From the IMG/VR virus record IMGVR_UViG_3300032397_000002, positions 1-64,000 of that record: a stretch of 64,000 nt of DNA, one strand, 5' to 3'. Numbering within the stretch: the first letter of the stretch is position 1; every line of letters starts with the position of its first letter. This stretch comes from a virus. Of the stretch, positions 46,362 through 54,646 are shown piece after piece. The notes beneath the pieces are model-generated. The model saw nothing but the letters and a program-made list of their open reading frames with translations, had not been told where the DNA came from and searched no databases. Both the position numbers and the translations under genes were made by a program.

Positions 46362-46385
46362 TGTGGTGAGCCTCCATGGAAGGCA

Positions 46386-46456: not shown

Positions 46457-49400
46457 ATGTCCATGATAATCGATGGCGTATTCGCCTCTGAGGCGATTGA
46501 TTCCAGTGGGGAAATCCTGGACGTAGAGGGCTGCGACATCAGTGACATGGAGCAGGGTTCTGGAGTCCTCAACTGGGAGCACCGAGGCGACGACGCCGCC
46601 GGCGCAAGTGCCAACGACATCATCGGCAAGGTGGTCTTCTGCAAGAAGATTTTTGGGCCCGAGGACTGTACCGACAGCCGCCAGCTGGAGTACTGGCAGA
46701 AGATACAACTCCCAATGATTTACGGTATTTGCAGGCTCTTTGATGGTTCGGGGCACCCAGGCGCCATCGCAGCTGCAGCCATGATTCGCGACTACCAGAA
46801 GAATGGCGAGCCCTTGCTCATCCGGTACAGCATCGAGGGCACCACCCTGGAGAAGGAGAAGGGCGGCAACCGGCTCCTGCGCTCCATTGCTCGTCGTGTC
46901 GCGGCTACCATTAAGCCCTGCAACAAGTCTTGTCACTCTGGCGTCATCGCTGACCCCAACGACCCCACGGTCAAGAAGCAAGAGCACGCCCACCCGAACT
47001 TCACCCCGCTGGGTGGCTCGATGGAGTGGGAAGGCAAGCCGGAGATCGACTCGCCTGAGATTCGCAAGGCTCTGGAGGCCGGCAACTACAATTCCGCCCC
47101 TGGCACCCTTACCGGTGGCTCAGCTCTGCAGCGGGAAGATGCTGGCCTGCGCAACCGCGTCAAGGCGGCTGTGCGGGACTGGGACCGCAAGACCCCGTTC
47201 AGGAAGTTCCTCAAGCACCGCCTGCCAGAGGCCAGTGATGGCTTCATTGACCGTTTCGCCGACCTGGTCCACGACTATACCGTCAAGAAGGCTCTGAAGG
47301 AGACCGTCAGAGAATACTTGGTGAAGAAAATCGTCGAGAAAGCCAAGGCGGCACCAAAAGCCAAGGCGTCAAAGCCGGCACCAGAGCCCAAGGCAGCAAA
47401 GGCCCCCAAGGCAGCAAAGCCGGCACCGGCACCAGCACCTGAGCCGGAATCCGATGTTGAAGTCGAGTCCGATGGCCCTCTGACTATCAAGGGCAAGCCT
47501 GTCCAGCTGAACCCCGGCATCGAGAAGCCCCACTTCGACGAGAACACCGGCGTACTCCACACTCCCAGGGGCAGCTTCCCTCTGTACATCCCCAGCCGGG
47601 ACAGAGACACCGCAGATGCAGGCCAGAAGTTCGCCAACATCATGGCTGACCCGAAGGTCGAGAAGTTCCATGACTACGCCATGGAGAACTGGGCCAAGGT
47701 TCACCAGCATCTGAAGGCCGGCACACTGCCTCCAGAGGTCGTGATGCACGGAGTGCTCTTCAGCCAGTTGAGCCCGAACACTCCGGTGCCCATGCAGGAG
47801 ATGATGTACGCCCACCTCGTGGACAGCATGAAGGCCACCGGTGCAGACCCACGACAGCCCGGCTTCAGCGACAAGCTCAAGCAGGACTGGTTCAATCGTG
47901 ACCAGCCCCAGAAGTTCCCTGACCACAGCCCGGAACACTGGGCCCGCTTGGGTGACCAGCTTCGTAACAAAATCGACTCGAAGCTCACTGGCCGCAAGGC
48001 TGGCGAGATCGGCGGCTTCATGCTCGCCAACAACAAGATGAAGAACATGGACCAGTACCATTCTCTTCACAACTCCCTGACGGAGCTGATTGGTCGCCAC
48101 CGTGCTGATGCTCGCTCTGGTGTTGAAGAACTGATGCACCACAAGACCCAGGCTGGCAATTGGGAGAACAAGCGCCGTCTCCGAACAGAGAAAGGCCAGA
48201 CTGACATTGGACCTTACACGGCAGGCCCCAGTGTTCCCGGCCTTGCAACCAAGACGGCCCGCTACACCTACGGCATGTTGGGCGGTGGCAATGTCACCGT
48301 GCCAGATACCCACTTCAGCCGCTACCTCTTTGGTCTTGACAAGCGCCAGGATGGGGCCACCATCCGACACCTCCGCAATGAGGTGCTCTGGAACCCCAAC
48401 AACGCCCACATCATGGGTGCCATCGACCGGTACTACGGCCAGCACCACGATGCCGTCAAGCACATGCTCCAGCACCCTCGGTGGGGGCACCTCTTCAAGG
48501 ACAACCCCGAAGACGCCATCTTCCCAGCTTTCTGGAAGAACTGGGTCGGCATTGTCCCCCATGAGGCAAGCCGAGGCATGAAGACTGGTGGCTTCAACGA
48601 GGCCACCGACCACCGTCCCTTCTGGGACGCTGTGGGTCCGTACATGAACAAGTCCGAGACTGGGATTGACACCAACCTGGCCGCTCAGACCGCGAAAACC
48701 CATGCGCAATGGGTTGAAAAATACGGCGAGATGCCGGCCCTCCTGATGTACTTCCACTACCTGGTGCCTCAGCTCTTGGCGTCCAGCGAGAAGGCAGCGA
48801 AGGCGCAACAGATTGTCAAGTTCGAGGAAGCGGCCATCGAGCTGTCGAAGGCAGACAGCATCACCCCGAGAGATCTCCAAGGGAATCGAATCCCAGCTTC
48901 GCAGGCTCCAGCGGCAGCTCCACGCCCCGAGGTGGCCTTTGACCCGAAGGTGGCTGAAGCCGCAAGACAGAGGGAAAATCCGAAGTACAGGAATCTCGAC
49001 GAAATCCCCGAGACGGTGCAGTTTGGCGGCAAGACCGTCAAGCCTGGCCACGGCTACATCCCTGGCGGGAAGCAGATGGCCTTCTTTGGCGCCACCCCTG
49101 AGCATCTCATCGGCGTTCCCCGCAACAAGGCTCAGTCCTGGACCACCGAGGACCTGATGAAGATCCCCAGGGCCAGCGGCGCGAGCGTCCAGCGGTACCC
49201 CGAGGAACTGGCGGCTCCCAGCATTGTCAGCCACGCTGTCCATGGCGTGCCTGAGTACACCCACCACGACGACGTTCGCAACCTGGTCGACGGGCTCGAC
49301 TTCGATGCCGAGAAACAGGCGAGCTTCTCTGGCATCAACCAGGCGCAGAGCTTCTGGACCGTGAACAAGGGCCACAAGGTCTACGTCAAGGCCAACCACG

Positions 49401-50149
49401 ACGAGAGCGACTTCGACGAGCCCAGCCGAGAAGGTCTGTACCACAACCTAGCCAGAGATTTCTTCGGCATGGGCAAGTACGTGACCCCGACGGGAGTCGT
49501 GCTGCACCCTCGCACTGGCCAGAAGCATGCGGTCATCGAGAATGTTGCTGGTGGTGAGCACCTGGATACCGAGAATCCCGAGCACAAGCAGACCATGCAA
49601 AACCTCATGGCCAGTGGCGAGCTGCACAAGATGACCATGATGAACGTCATCGCAGCCAACCATGACCGGCACCGTGGCAACTTCATGATGACTCCTGGGG
49701 GCCTGAAACTCATCGACCATGGCTACGCCTTCGCTGACAAGGACCTCCATGCGACCCCTACCCCGGACTACATCAAGTACCACGACCTGATGACGGCTTC
49801 TCCGAATGACCCGAGGGACCTGGCCAGCATCGAGGCAAAGCTCCGCTTCCACCCTGAAGCAGCGAAGTGGCTCCAGGCGCTGGACCCCCAGCAGCTTGAC
49901 ATGCAGATGCGGCGCCACGGTGTGCCAGAGAGGTACGTTGATGAGGCCCGCCGCCGGCTTGTCGCCCTCCAGCACGAGAGCCGCGACCCCAAGGCAACCA
50001 TCGTTTCGATGATGCGGGCTCCCTTCCACACCGCGTGGGTGCCACCGGAAGAGCGAAAAGGCCCCAAGCCCTCCAGCTCTGACTCCCAGTCCGATGTCTC
50101 GCCTCCACGTGGCGCCCCTGGACAAAAACCTCAAGGTAAGGTAGGGTAA
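46457..50149 (+). CDS. Large head protein: prohead-protease-like domain fused to kinase-like domain
   Basis: The 1230-residue protein starts MSMIIDGVFASEAID and continues VLNWEHRG, like XkdF-type prohead proteases (about 1-190). Residues 204-228 match the major capsid protein N-terminus (18/25 identical). An Ala/Pro/Lys linker (about 300-340) and a long helical region follow. The C-terminal part (about 950-1110) resembles PI3/4-kinase or HipA-like kinases: YVKANH (Lys), NHDRHRGNF (1068-1076) and LKLIDHGYAF with Asp1087. The catalytic protease residues are not certain. ATG 46457 has AGGAG upstream; ATG 46376 is possible. Confidence 0.72.
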   Translation: MSMIIDGVFASEAIDSSGEILDVEGCDISDMEQGSGVLNWEHRGDDAAGASANDIIGKVVFCKKIFGPEDCTDSRQLEYWQKIQLPMIYGICRLFDGSGHPGAIAAAAMIRDYQKNGEPLLIRYSIEGTTLEKEKGGNRLLRSIARRVAATIKPCNKSCHSGVIADPNDPTVKKQEHAHPNFTPLGGSMEWEGKPEIDSPEIRKALEAGNYNSAPGTLTGGSALQREDAGLRNRVKAAVRDWDRKTPFRKFLKHRLPEASDGFIDRFADLVHDYTVKKALKETVREYLVKKIVEKAKAAPKAKASKPAPEPKAAKAPKAAKPAPAPAPEPESDVEVESDGPLTIKGKPVQLNPGIEKPHFDENTGVLHTPRGSFPLYIPSRDRDTADAGQKFANIMADPKVEKFHDYAMENWAKVHQHLKAGTLPPEVVMHGVLFSQLSPNTPVPMQEMMYAHLVDSMKATGADPRQPGFSDKLKQDWFNRDQPQKFPDHSPEHWARLGDQLRNKIDSKLTGRKAGEIGGFMLANNKMKNMDQYHSLHNSLTELIGRHRADARSGVEELMHHKTQAGNWENKRRLRTEKGQTDIGPYTAGPSVPGLATKTARYTYGMLGGGNVTVPDTHFSRYLFGLDKRQDGATIRHLRNEVLWNPNNAHIMGAIDRYYGQHHDAVKHMLQHPRWGHLFKDNPEDAIFPAFWKNWVGIVPHEASRGMKTGGFNEATDHRPFWDAVGPYMNKSETGIDTNLAAQTAKTHAQWVEKYGEMPALLMYFHYLVPQLLASSEKAAKAQQIVKFEEAAIELSKADSITPRDLQGNRIPASQAPAAAPRPEVAFDPKVAEAARQRENPKYRNLDEIPETVQFGGKTVKPGHGYIPGGKQMAFFGATPEHLIGVPRNKAQSWTTEDLMKIPRASGASVQRYPEELAAPSIVSHAVHGVPEYTHHDDVRNLVDGLDFDAEKQASFSGINQAQSFWTVNKGHKVYVKANHDESDFDEPSREGLYHNLARDFFGMGKYVTPTGVVLHPRTGQKHAVIENVAGGEHLDTENPEHKQTMQNLMASGELHKMTMMNVIAANHDRHRGNFMMTPGGLKLIDHGYAFADKDLHATPTPDYIKYHDLMTASPNDPRDLASIEAKLRFHPEAAKWLQALDPQQLDMQMRRHGVPERYVDEARRRLVALQHESRDPKATIVSMMRAPFHTAWVPPEERKGPKPSSSDSQSDVSPPRGAPGQKPQGKVG

Positions 50150-50153
50150 GCTC

Positions 50154-51383
50154 ATGGAAGGCCTTCAAAACCTGTATCTTCTCTGTCAGATTCACCCCCA
50201 TGGGGATGAGCTGCACACGACCGTCATTGGCAAGTTCTACCTCGACAGCGAGCACTTCGAAGTCCTTGAAGACCACGTTGGCTGGTTGGGTGACCTGCAG
50301 AAGCAAAGCCCAGCAGAGGCCTCTCGCGTCATTTGGCGCCTGGCCAATAGCATGTACTACAAGGTCGTCAACATGGAGGACATGCGCCAGGGGAAGCATC
50401 CTGAGCTTATCAACGAGGAGCCCATACCCCCAACGGCCGGTCCAGAATCCCGTTTTGAGTACCACCGGGTAGGAATGCCTGAAGCGCAGCTCGTGGAGTT
50501 CCACGAAGGCAAGGCGTACCTCGATGGCCACCCGCTGTCACCCCAGGACCTACAGCATATGCTTGACAACGTACAAGCTGGTTCTGCTACTCTCGGATAC
50601 AAGCAGGCAGAAGATGACCTGCAGAAGTCCGAGGAGTTCTATATGACGTTGGCCAAGGTTGAACCACATCTCGACGCAGCCCTTCAGGGTCTCCGAGCAG
50701 CAGTCAAGGCGGGGCATGTACACCCTGACGTGCTCAAGCACCTCACCGGGGAGATTTTCACTGACTCGATGGTGAAGGGCATGGGCAACAAGAAGGCCTA
50801 CATGGACTTTCTCAGCCGGCCCAAGCAGGGCGTCCACATCCGCATGGACGGGAACGATTTCGGTGGCATCAACAAGGTCCATGGCTTCGAGACTGGCAAC
50901 AAGGCCATCACCGCCCTGGGCGGTGCAGTGCGCGAGGCCATGGATGAGGCTGTTGGTAGAGCCAACGGCAAGGCGTTTCGTATCGGTGGAGACGAGTTCC
51001 ATGCCTTCGTGCCATCTCACGAGCATGCAGCTCAATTTGCCAGGGCTCTTCGTCAGAAGCTGGAGGCTATCCCTGCTGTCGGTGGTACCCACAACCTGAG
51101 CATGAGCCTTGGTTTCGGGCACACACCAGACCACGCAGAGCTGGCCATGATAAATGCCAAGGGTGCCAAGAAAGCCAGTGGTGCCAAGCCTGGTCAGGCC
51201 AAGACCCACGCAGCCTCACAGGTGCCTGGGTACGAGGGACTCATTCCCACCGGTGCAGATCAACTGCCCCTGAAGCAGATTCCTGAGGCACCGGCACCCG
51301 TCGCTCCGGCACCAATCAAGACACCAGAGCAGCCCTCAACGCCGACGTCGATTCACCCGCCGGCGCTTGGGAAGCCTACCTAA
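50154..51383 (+). CDS. GGDEF-domain (diguanylate-cyclase-like) protein in head operon
   Basis: The 409-residue protein carries a GGDEF domain at about 207-345: MGNKKAYMDFL, VHIRMDGNDFGGINKVHGFETGN (metal Asp232), FRIGGDEFHAF (GGDEF at 278-282), then NLSMSLGFG and an AK..GAKKASG helix. The signature is intact, so nucleotidyl cyclase activity (c-di-GMP or similar) is possible. The RxxD inhibitory site is not conserved (RANG). The first 200 residues are helical and unfamiliar; the last 60 are Pro/Ala-rich. The gene starts five bases after the kinase-fused head protein, so the protein may be packaged. Confidence 0.8.
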   Translation: MEGLQNLYLLCQIHPHGDELHTTVIGKFYLDSEHFEVLEDHVGWLGDLQKQSPAEASRVIWRLANSMYYKVVNMEDMRQGKHPELINEEPIPPTAGPESRFEYHRVGMPEAQLVEFHEGKAYLDGHPLSPQDLQHMLDNVQAGSATLGYKQAEDDLQKSEEFYMTLAKVEPHLDAALQGLRAAVKAGHVHPDVLKHLTGEIFTDSMVKGMGNKKAYMDFLSRPKQGVHIRMDGNDFGGINKVHGFETGNKAITALGGAVREAMDEAVGRANGKAFRIGGDEFHAFVPSHEHAAQFARALRQKLEAIPAVGGTHNLSMSLGFGHTPDHAELAMINAKGAKKASGAKPGQAKTHAASQVPGYEGLIPTGADQLPLKQIPEAPAPVAPAPIKTPEQPSTPTSIHPPALGKPT

Positions 51384-51677
51384 GCAGTCCTTACATGTTC
51401 TCTTGTGTCCGTAGAACTGCAGGCTAGCTGCCAGCAGGTTCCGGCACTTGTTGCATTGCCTAAGTCCCTGAATTTCATTGCAGCTTTGACACCGGCCATT
51501 CTTGTCCAGGCGTCGATGCTCTGAGCAGATGCCGCAAGGCACTGGATATTTCTTCGCGAAGTAGGCACGGCTACGGCAGGCCTCGCATTGGCTCATGCGG
51601 CCACCGGGGCCACGGTCTGGCCTCTCGTGAAAGTCACTCAATGGCTTGGGTAGGCCGCAGAGGCTGCATTGCTTCAT
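51336..51677 (-). CDS. Multi-zinc-ribbon protein, HNH-like Cys pattern without clear catalytic His
   Basis: The 113-residue product begins KQCSLCGLPKPLSDF and has four CxxC pairs (CSLC, CEAC, CGIC with CQSC, CNKC with CKDC) and a very basic end. This is the zinc frame of small phage HNH proteins but no HNH catalytic core is seen. Its start follows a degenerate tRNA-like segment, and its 3' end overlaps the GGDEF gene by 48 bases. It may be a former homing endonuclease. Confidence 0.62.
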   Translation of the reverse strand: MKQCSLCGLPKPLSDFHERPDRGPGGRMSQCEACRSRAYFAKKYPVPCGICSEHRRLDKNGRCQSCNEIQGLRQCNKCRNLLAASLQFYGHKRTCKDCLGRLPKRRRVNRRRR

Positions 51678-51681
51678 GTCT

Positions 51682-51745
51682 GCAAGATTACTGCTTGCCA
51701 CTTTTTTGCTCCCAGACTGCCGCAATCTACCAGTTGAACGACTTT
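51682..51745 (-). pseudogene. Possible degenerate tRNA-like segment
   Basis: Read leftward, GTTCAACTGGTAGA resembles a D-arm and GCAAG-CAGTAAT-CTTGC forms a T-arm-sized stem and 7-base loop, but the TTC of the T loop is lost and no acceptor stem pairs. It lies directly before the zinc-ribbon gene. Confidence 0.3.
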
Positions 51746-51778
51746 CCCAACCCCCTTTGTTTCTGAGGAGAATCCACA

Positions 51779-52225
51779 ATGGCTCAATCGTACAAGTCCC
51801 AAGCTCTCGCTGCTGAACTCCGTGACGCGCTTCTGAAGCGTTTCGCAACCGTGTCGGCAATTCTGTTTGACACCGATGGTTCGCCGTACCTGCTCGTCGG
51901 AGCCGGCACCGCAGGCTCGCAGTCCGCACTCGTGAAGGTCAGCGCTGAGCAGCCGCTCGGTGTGGACGGCCTGGGCATGACCCCCCGCGCTTTCTCGCCG
52001 CACGTGATGCAGGTGGTTCTGGAGACCAGCACCATCGCCAACGTGGCTCTCATGACTGAGGCCAACAAGCTCGCCCTGATGGGTGAGGTTGAGAAGTGGG
52101 GCACCAAGATCGAGCTGTACATGAGCGCAAACACCAATGCAGTTGGGCCCGAGGACATTGTCAGCGGCAACCTGAAGGCAACCTGGGAAATCGCACTCAA
52201 GTGGCGGTCGATGTCGAACGCTTAA
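51779..52225 (+). CDS. Head decoration or auxiliary capsid protein candidate, 148 aa
   Basis: The product is a mixed alpha/beta protein (ILFDTDGSPYLLVGAGTAGSQSALVKV) with a strand-rich end, no catalytic motif, GAGGAGA upstream, and position before the scaffold-like and capsid genes. Capsid decoration is inferred from position and size. Confidence 0.6.
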   Translation: MAQSYKSQALAAELRDALLKRFATVSAILFDTDGSPYLLVGAGTAGSQSALVKVSAEQPLGVDGLGMTPRAFSPHVMQVVLETSTIANVALMTEANKLALMGEVEKWGTKIELYMSANTNAVGPEDIVSGNLKATWEIALKWRSMSNA

Positions 52226-52248
52226 TCAGAAGCGAGGTCAACTTCTGA
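52226..52248 (+). repeat. Small hairpin between late genes
   Basis: TCAGAAG and CTTCTGA pair across a 9-base loop just after a stop codon; no U-tract follows. It may stabilise or process the late mRNA. Confidence 0.35.
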
Positions 52249-52267
52249 CAGGCATGGAGACACGACA

Positions 52268-53224
52268 ATGACGATGAAAATCAAAGAATCAGAGCTGAAG
52301 GCCCTACTGGAGGAAGTCGCAAACGACCTCTCCAAGGCATTCGAGTCCGAGAAGGACAAGCTCGTGAAGGCAGAAGAGGTCGAAAAATCGGCCCTCGCCA
52401 AGGACGACGCACCAGGTGAGGAATCCCCTGGTGAGCCGCCTGCGGCTGATGCCTCCGCTCCCCCGGACGCTTCTGCTGCCCCCTCCCCCGAGGAAGGCAG
52501 TGAGAGTGCTCCTCCCGCTTCACCTGACGCTTCGGCTTCCCCCGACGGCGCTCCCTCACCGGACGCTGCGATGGATCCAGCCGCAGATGCGTCGGCAGCT
52601 CTGACCCCTGAGGTTCTGCAGGCAGAGTACTCGAAGTTGGCTCCTGAGGAGCTGGACATGCACATCAAGGCAGCACTGGCGGCGAAGGCTGCTGTTGCTG
52701 GCGCACCGGATGCTTCGGCTGGCGCACCTCCGATGGCTCCACCGGATGCTTCGGCACCCCCGATGGCACCCCCGGCGGGCCCTTCTGCACCTCCCGCACC
52801 TGGCGCACCCCCGTTGGACCCGATGGCCCTCAAGTCTGAGGTGCCGGCTGGAAATCTGAAGGCGAATGGTGGGCAAATCAAGGGCGCATCGCTCGGCAAG
52901 TCCGAAGGCGAGAAGCGCCATGACGATGAGATTGAAGCCCTCAAGGCTTTGGTCAAGTCGCAGGCCGAAGACACCGAAAACCTGGCGAAGGTTCTCAAGG
53001 CAGTCCTTGAGCAGCCCCTCCGCAAGGCCGTGACGAGCGTCTCGCATCTCCCGAAGGTGGAGACCGAGAAGGCGCCTCTCACGAAGGCGAGCATCAATGC
53101 ACGCCTGAAGGAACTGTCGCAGAAGCCGGACTTGAAGAAGTCCGACAGGCAGTTGATCAATGACTTCTACGATGGGCGGGTCAGGGCTGATGCTCTTGCT
53201 CCTCTCTTCGAGGACTACAAGTAA
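52268..53224 (+). CDS. Scaffold-like Ala/Pro-rich head protein
   Basis: The 318-residue product has a helical charged N-terminus (about 1-45), a long Ala/Pro/Asp repeat region (45-210, repeats of PDASA and PPMAPP) and a helical charged C-terminus ending DALAPLFEDYK. It sits directly before the major capsid gene, the usual scaffold position, and GGAG precedes its ATG. The low-complexity core is unusual for a scaffold, so a spacer or decoration role is possible. Confidence 0.62.
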   Translation: MTMKIKESELKALLEEVANDLSKAFESEKDKLVKAEEVEKSALAKDDAPGEESPGEPPAADASAPPDASAAPSPEEGSESAPPASPDASASPDGAPSPDAAMDPAADASAALTPEVLQAEYSKLAPEELDMHIKAALAAKAAVAGAPDASAGAPPMAPPDASAPPMAPPAGPSAPPAPGAPPLDPMALKSEVPAGNLKANGGQIKGASLGKSEGEKRHDDEIEALKALVKSQAEDTENLAKVLKAVLEQPLRKAVTSVSHLPKVETEKAPLTKASINARLKELSQKPDLKKSDRQLINDFYDGRVRADALAPLFEDYK

Positions 53225-53254
53225 CACCACAAGGATTCAGAGGAGAACAAACAA

Positions 53255-54646
53255 ATGGCTACTGAAGTGACGCAAGCACTGCTCAAGGCTCTCGAAGCCG
53301 GCAACTACAACCAGGCTCCCAGCACTCTCGTGCAGGGTGGCTCCCTCCAGATTGAGGATCTCTCGCCGGTCATGCACAACGTGACCTTCGACGATTCGCA
53401 CATCAAGCTCCAGAAGATGGTCAAGGTGGACAGCTGCAAGTCGACCCTGGCGCAGTTCAACCGTCAGCTCAGCTACGGTGTCTTCGGCGGGTCGGCTCAG
53501 CTCGAAGGCGCAGTTGGCCAGGAAGAGACGAGCGACTTCGTGCGTATCGTGGTTGCGATGGCGTACTACTCGCACATTCGCCGGGTTTCAATCGTGGCGA
53601 ACATGGTCGACACTGCCGATGGCGTGAAGGCTGAAGAGCGGGCAGCGTCTGACGCGGCCAAGAAGCTCGCAGCTGACATCGAGTTCGATCTGTTCCGTGG
53701 CAAGGCTGACTTCTCGAACGGTGGTCTGTTCGACGGCAACCAGCTCGCCATCCCGGGTCTCCCCTCGATGCTCGGCCTCGATGCCCAGATTCGTCAGTCG
53801 GACTCGGAGCGCAATGCTACCGACCTGATGTTCGGCGAGTACGGCAGCGACGACACCGTGGTCATCAGCGGTGGCGGCACCCTCAGCCAGGACATGATTG
53901 AGGACGCCAGCGTGCGTTCGGCCATGAACCTCGGCTCGGCGGACAAGCTCCTGGTGGACCCCAAGGTCCTCTCGGCGTACAACAAGATCAGCTTCGGCAA
54001 GGAGCGCATCGTGCTGGCAGGTTCGGCACAGGATGCAACCGGCGCCGAGCTTCGCAAGCAGTGGGTCAGCAACGGTGTTGTCGGTCTTGAGGCCTCGCGC
54101 TTCCTGTCTGGCAAGACCCGCCCCTCGGCTGCACGCAGCAATGGTCCCTCTGCACCGACCATCGCGAGCACCACCCCGTCAGGCGCAAGCACCAGTCTCG
54201 CACTGGGCACCTACGTGTGGTACGTGACCTCTGTCAACGAGCTGGGTGAGTCGCCGAAGTCGGCTGCTGCATCGCAGGCTTGCTCGGCTGGCGACCAGGT
54301 CACCGTGGCCATCACGCCCCCGGGCACTGGCACTGTGCGCTTCTTCAATGTGTACCGCTCGGCAGCGGGTGGGTCGGCAGCATCGGCTCGCTTCATCGGC
54401 CGCGTGTCCTACACCGGCGCAAGCCCCACGAACTTCGTGGACCTGAACAACAAGCGGCCTGGTTTCGTGACCGGCTTCCTGGTTCAGGGCGACACCATGG
54501 CCATGAAGGAGCTGTCTCCCTACAGCCGCCTCAAGCTGGCTGTGTCGGACCTCAGCATTCCTGAGGCGCACTTCCGATTCTGCACCCTGGCTGTTCACGA
54601 GCCCCGCAAGAACGTGCTCATCGACAACCTTGTCGGCAGCTTCTAA
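53255..54646 (+). CDS. Major capsid protein with Ig-like insertion
   Basis: The 463-residue protein has an N-terminal arm (KALEAGNYNQAPSTL, 11-25), a long E-loop-like region, the HK97-type spine segment DAAKKLAADIEFDLFRGKAD and a strand-rich core. A fibronectin/Ig-like domain (PSAPTIASTTPSG ... TYVWYVTSVNELGESPKS, about 305-400) is inserted near the C-terminus, as in some capsid surface domains. It is the last gene before a strong terminator, and GAGGAGA precedes the ATG, which fits high expression. Confidence 0.82.
   Translation: MATEVTQALLKALEAGNYNQAPSTLVQGGSLQIEDLSPVMHNVTFDDSHIKLQKMVKVDSCKSTLAQFNRQLSYGVFGGSAQLEGAVGQEETSDFVRIVVAMAYYSHIRRVSIVANMVDTADGVKAEERAASDAAKKLAADIEFDLFRGKADFSNGGLFDGNQLAIPGLPSMLGLDAQIRQSDSERNATDLMFGEYGSDDTVVISGGGTLSQDMIEDASVRSAMNLGSADKLLVDPKVLSAYNKISFGKERIVLAGSAQDATGAELRKQWVSNGVVGLEASRFLSGKTRPSAARSNGPSAPTIASTTPSGASTSLALGTYVWYVTSVNELGESPKSAAASQACSAGDQVTVAITPPGTGTVRFFNVYRSAAGGSAASARFIGRVSYTGASPTNFVDLNNKRPGFVTGFLVQGDTMAMKELSPYSRLKLAVSDLSIPEAHFRFCTLAVHEPRKNVLIDNLVGSF

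Follow-up and report, generated by a model that had tools for sequence, protein, structure and literature searches.

The protease-kinase protein encoded in the head-gene cluster of the window (the whole stretch of 64,000 nucleotides of viral DNA analysed here, positions 1–64,000 of IMG/VR record IMGVR_UViG_3300032397_000002) carries a copy of the N-terminal arm of the phage's own major capsid protein (MCP), and in other phages with SPO1-type capsids the two copies recur as a pair and vary together. The explanation we favour, and hold to be moderately probable, is that the segment serves head assembly as a module of two parts, a cut site followed by the N-terminal arm of the capsid protein, which the protease would imitate in order to dock in the prohead.

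The shared segment and the proteins that carry it

Residues 204–228 of the protease (47066..47140, + strand) and residues 11–35 of the MCP (53285..53359, + strand) align without gaps with 18 of 25 residues identical (KALEAGNYNSAPGTLTGGSALQRED vs KALEAGNYNQAPSTLVQGGSLQIED; BLASTP E 6e-7), exactly at the positions given in the original prediction. The local score of this pair is 89, above all of 200 shuffles of the protease (mean 29.8, maximum 45), and the DNA identity of the two copies is just 47/75. Searches of the whole 168,622-bp record with a 37-aa MCP query and with a 14-sequence profile each placed the arm at exactly two positions. It should be noted that the protease numbering presupposes a start at ATG 46457, and that from the longest-ORF start at 46376 the same segment would be residues 231–255.

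The capsid protein (CDS 53255..54646, + strand) is of the SPO1 type, matching phrog_752 over residues 4–459 (E 1.3e-43), with SPO1 gp6.1 (9vel) and the phage 812 protein (9row) as PDB relatives. An AF2 model of the MCP built from 14 sequences reached a pLDDT of 41 and did not place the arm in the shell. We note that MCP residues 299–398 (54149–54448) form an inserted domain with a match to phrog_19622 (labelled esterase/lipase, E 5.8e-7), which looks like an Ig-like insertion.

The protease is the N-terminal part of a head protease-kinase fusion (CDS 46457..50149, + strand) with a homologue in Myxococcus phage Mx1; the ORF reaches up to 46376, and ATG 46457 is the conserved start, relatives beginning at an equivalent M. 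Its catalytic domain (46457..46990, + strand) was delimited by invariant columns, AF2 and Foldseek, and includes His42 (46580–46582, NWEH) and Ser125 (46829–46831, YSIEG), both invariant in 18 sequences, which we propose as the catalytic pair; the proteases of SPO1 and K have an H and a (G)FSxEG motif at matching places. AF2 modelled this domain with a pLDDT of mostly 80–94, and the best Foldseek match in the PDB was the herpesvirus protease 4v07 (prob 0.92, E 9.7e-3), while many prohead proteases were matched in BFVD (E 1e-8 to 1e-5), with TM-scores that are low (0.26–0.5), the tail of the model being disordered. Profile searches with the window protease, relaxed to E 10 for Pfam and E 1 for PHROG, gave no match to any family, the S78-like PF04586 and phrog_1028 included, whereas both families are matched by the SPO1 and K proteases and a sister-clade protease (L007) matches phrog_1028 weakly (E 9.5e-5). 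We therefore call the window protein prohead-protease-like by fold and context, and not a member of S78. The head protease and capsid protein had nonetheless been named rightly at the outset, the latter by its phrog_752 match and the former by its Mx1 homologue, annotated as a 'putative prohead protease', and by its prohead- and herpes-like predicted fold.

The protease arm is left disordered by AF2, and is followed by a helical domain (VRDWD...LPEASDGFIDRFADLV; 47141..47347, + strand) which is conserved in relatives and has AF2 helices at residues 229–240, 248–255 and 261–297. The remainder of the protein (47348–50149) is a fused PI3/PI4-kinase-like part. Its NHDRHRGN and LIDH motifs belong to a stretch at 49619..49741 (+ strand) that matches PF00454 with an E of 6.8e-6 and 26.6 bits, slightly short of the 27.1 bits that Pfam requires.

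Between protease and MCP lies a candidate scaffold gene (52268..53224, + strand), the Ala/Pro-rich product of which contains nine (LIVMF)xK(S/A) sites vs 1.6 expected and which is positioned like the annotated SPO1 scaffold; profile searches gave no family match for it. The head-gene cluster also includes, again between protease and MCP, a gene for a GGDEF-domain protein (50154–51383; PF00990, E 4.9e-8, with RIGGDEF intact), and in Mx1 a gene annotated 'nucleotide cyclase' is similarly placed.

Breadth and co-variation of the arm pair

The protease arm copy is present in nearly all of the SPO1-type-capsid phages sampled, which include the Mx1 group, the Herelleviridae, a group of ~90-kb phages and the Thermus phage Cumys. 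We had considered whether the pair was an oddity of one phage, and this is ruled out by its wide recurrence. Amongst the Mx1-like relatives, all proteases of the alignment keep the arm while the linker ahead of it is very variable in length, and the invariant protease columns K204, A208, G209, P215, G221, L224 and E227 are those of the MCP (K11, A15, G16, P22, G28, L31 and E34). A sister clade, in which the protease is short, is encoded on the opposite strand and has a linker of different length and sequence, also keeps the arm, as does a third clade (L142 and L144) with a protease-kinase of 559–574 aa. Loss of the motif in close relatives had been named, together with a lack of processing near either copy, as grounds for rejecting the original prediction, and we found no such loss: all proteases examined that reach this region, in the Mx1 group and the sister clades, retain the arm. 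We note that in the sister clade (L007, L008, L009, L011, L013, L014, L016, L017 and L021) the protease is encoded on the strand opposite the MCP, and that no kinase part was detected in the protease ORF of these members.

More distantly, copies of the phage's own arm were found in the proteases of SPO1, phage K and its relatives, Twort, Dolphis and the A511-like LP-125, in those of Listeria, Enterococcus, Lactobacillus, Aerococcus, Exiguobacterium and Lysinibacillus phages, and in the ~90-kb group of Bordetella, Pseudomonas, Aeromonas, Morganella and Yersinia phages; Lactobacillus Lb338 and Aerococcus AVP show a weak match. Cumys has AGDPHALDxKxGLxGVPAIRxESLE in both protease and MCP. A 43-aa phage K capsid query found 1129 places in 582 records (Herelleviridae); where records were checked, the second place proved to be the protease, and the reciprocal protease query found 1116 places in 577 records. 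The phrog_752 capsid HMM likewise aligns to the arm in the proteases of both SPO1 and K. Of another 62 IMG/VR loci that contain the two genes, the own pair scored above all 200 shuffles in 55; the seven that did not were L081, where the protease is cut by the contig end, and six fusions of protease and scaffold (L060, L061, L062, L064, L065 and L129). Although the segment is short, the probability that the likeness arose by chance is negligible given the E of 6e-7 for the window pair, a profile probability of 99.2 and the hundreds of records involved. One place matching the phage K protease arm (72%) in Bacillus phage 010DV005 (MZ501261.1, 122873–123001) is annotated as 'major capsid protein', a label for which the common arm may be to blame.

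Within genomes the two copies co-vary. Using 11 clade representatives with close genomes collapsed, the mean arm score of own MCP–protease pairs was 74.5, compared to 32.0 for mismatched pairs, 36.3 between capsid orthologues and 35.3 between protease orthologues; the own-pair score was reached by 0 of 100,000 permutations, though deep kinship remains and this is not a strict probability. The own pair of Cumys scored 101 vs ≤27 in any other pairing. If the cut site alone mattered and the remaining likeness were the ancestral baggage of an old duplication, the site would be expected where it nearly always is, at or near the arm start, but the arms would have drifted so that capsid arms resembled capsid arms and protease arms resembled protease arms; as own pairs instead match best on average, we regard this explanation as improbable.

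Concerted evolution of this kind is also the classical sign of gene conversion, and repeated, functionless recombination that carries the start of the capsid gene into that of the protease would produce it. However, identical residues share the same codon at 226 of 529 positions vs 237.2 expected from codon usage (28 genomes pooled), which leaves no trace of recent DNA copying; the test reaches conversion younger than codon saturation, and we consider this explanation more improbable still. Co-variation of own pairs with codon agreement at background indicates that selection on the protein, and not recent DNA copying, holds the pair together. Recent capture or gene conversion is ruled out by the codon agreement, and the suggestion that the protease gene had captured the capsid start finds no support as a recent event, the pair also spanning very distant phages.

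A predicted cut site at the arm start and a proposed docking arm

The scaffold proteins of 26 phages contain 168 (LIVMF)xK(S/A) sites vs 26.9 expected (SD 4.9), an enrichment of about six-fold, while the capsid bodies used as a control contain 21 vs 22.3 expected; the scaffold sites favour a hydrophobic residue at P2'. From these patterns we infer that the phage protease cuts at (LIVM)xK↓(S/A), with the arrow marking the cut. A site is located exactly at the arm start in 27 of 30 MCPs and 24 of 30 proteases when the pattern is widened to LIVMFY and SAGT. The window protease has a predicted processing site, I-R-K↓A (47060..47071, + strand), that would be cut after K204 (between 47068 and 47069), and the window MCP has a single (LIVMF)xK(S/A) site exactly at the arm (LLK↓A, at 53285).

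Older work on A511 reportedly found N-terminal processing of Cps near residue 24. We predict that the window MCP loses the propeptide MATEVTQALLK (53255..53287, + strand) by a cut after K11, in analogy to the phage 812 capsid protein: of its 463 residues, 439 are present in the 9row chain, which thus starts at S25, right after K24. This chain start may reflect the depositors' choice of sequence, and the accessible part of the phage 812 neck paper describes no capsid cleavage. It should also be noted that the consensus ends in Lys, where trypsin cuts too, and routine trypsin-based virion proteomics would therefore miss the processing.

The original prediction held that both copies may carry the same cleavage or scaffold-docking site, and the sequences support this in the form of a module with two parts instead of one site. 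The first part would be a site, (L/I/V/M)-x-K↓(S/A), at which the protease of the phage itself cuts, and the second the capsid N-terminal arm of 20–30 residues, copied in the protease between the catalytic and C-terminal helical domains. The arm behaves like a docking segment, since 20–30 conserved residues exceed what protease subsites need and scaffold sites come without an arm. Most likely the copy would give the protease access to the docking places of capsid arms in the growing prohead, the copied segment interacting with shell or scaffold. Both arms of a phage would have to fit one partner, which we propose is a capsid neighbour or the scaffold, and this would keep the protease arm matched to that of the capsid. 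During maturation the protease would then cut scaffold, capsid propeptide and itself at one kind of site. The self-cut would free the catalytic domain and give the C-terminal part an N-terminus almost like that of mature capsid protein; a cut at K204–A205 would therefore leave a kinase-like fragment of ~1,000 residues with a near-mature-capsid N-terminus, and we speculate that this fragment might stay in the head. A precedent for the self-cut is SPN3US gp245, a protease which removes its own C-terminal propeptide (PMC10052503). Protease peptides have been reported from purified virions of the Herelleviridae phages CKA15 (PMC12282133) and Bc431v3 (PMC3601020), the text naming no particular part of the protein.

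Exceptions to the pairing bear on the docking model in both directions. Protease and scaffold form one ORF adjoining the MCP in MA9V-3 and its relatives (L060–L065) and in the distant L129, and in the seven fusion ORFs the arm match is lost or a mere relic, the seventh (L063) giving, as L062 does, a marginal alignment that falls outside the region of the arm. MA9V-3 and L064 still have a K-A(M) site. As the correlation involves one clade plus L129, it represents one or two independent events. The Leptospira phage LE1 has a protease without the arm, and here a large protein encoded just after the MCP opens with the arm instead (MLTANSEGNTDVGNLTGGAALQKDPF; profile E 3.1e-6). Both arm decay in the fusions and the LE1 arm on another protein fit a role for the arm in bringing proteins to the shell. 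In the Bacteroides phages DAC19 and SJC03 the protease is encoded separately, and no arm was found in the neighbourhood (a search of viral_contigs found no relatives of the DAC phages); these phages and LE1 are two lineages with a separate protease lacking the arm copy, and they count against the docking model. LE1-0025, the arm-bearing protein of LE1, is annotated as a 'tail protein' of 885 aa (L055:5713–8370), and its capsid-arm-like start is followed by a HAD-like-looking domain (VCIDFDGVINSY). It is the exception amongst the other neighbouring ORFs and scaffolds of the phages examined, in which no arm was found.

The same observations can be set against a different model, in which the protease copy is a pseudo-substrate that fills, in cis, either the active site or an exosite and silences the enzyme until assembly, self-cleavage removing the copy and the same exosite recognising the capsid arm. 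Within-genome co-variation fits this equally well, a cut site is found at the start of both copies, and SPN3US provides a known case of a protease that cleaves off its own C-terminal propeptide (PMC10052503), while the AF2 models, having no confident placement for the arm, speak neither for nor against it. However, the enriched scaffold sites come without the arm, the arm decays in protease–scaffold fusions while the site remains, and in LE1 the arm belongs to a protein other than the protease, and on balance we think a pseudo-substrate role unlikely.

The docking model can be extended to make the capsid arm a portable loading tag by which arm-bearing proteins are built into SPO1-type heads, so that the kinase-like fragment of the Mx1 group and the HAD-like multidomain protein of LE1 would be loaded. 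We put this forward tentatively, as something possible that we would not presume. If it were true, those enzymes may be delivered with the DNA, and the arm could be used for putting enzymes into phage heads. The docking model itself offers a testable answer, for a class of phages that includes SPO1 and Staphylococcus phage K, to how and when head proteases enter the prohead and act.

Comparison with known systems

Mx1 (OR576727.2) is the nearest named phage and resembles the window in gene order, in having a protease of ~1240 aa with the arm and a cyclase between protease and MCP, and in its matched arms. Its protease is ~50% and its MCP 60% identical to those of the window, and the arm is absent from the Mx1 annotation. 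The Herelleviridae cassette (portal–protease–scaffold–MCP; gp3.1–gp3.2–gp3.3–gp6.1 in SPO1, and in K and A511 relatives) shares the SPO1-type MCP and a scaffold rich in (LIVMF)xK(S/A), and has an S78-type protease with its own capsid-arm copy. In contrast to the window, this protease is ~257 aa long without a kinase, and there are no extra genes between protease and scaffold.

In herpesviruses, the UL26/UL26.5 system uses a capsid-interacting tail to take the protease into the shell, where the enzyme releases itself at scaffold-like sites. The herpesvirus protease shares the tail of the scaffold, whereas the window protease shares the N-terminus of the capsid protein; by its predicted model, the window protease is closest in fold to a herpesvirus protease (4v07). 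T4 gp21 is grouped with SPN3US gp245 as a prohead protease with a short cut motif, propeptides and autocleavage. SPN3US gp245 is like our proposal in its short P1-centred cut motif, N-terminal propeptides and C-terminal autocleavage (PMC10052503), but it cuts after AxE and not (LIVMF)xK, and a capsid-arm copy is not described there.

The literature available to us, mostly without subscription papers, contained no report of a protease with a co-varying copy of the capsid N-terminus. Proteases that share a scaffold tail and free themselves, and C-terminal self-cleavage, are known from other systems; the co-varying copy of the capsid arm in the protease would be what is new here.
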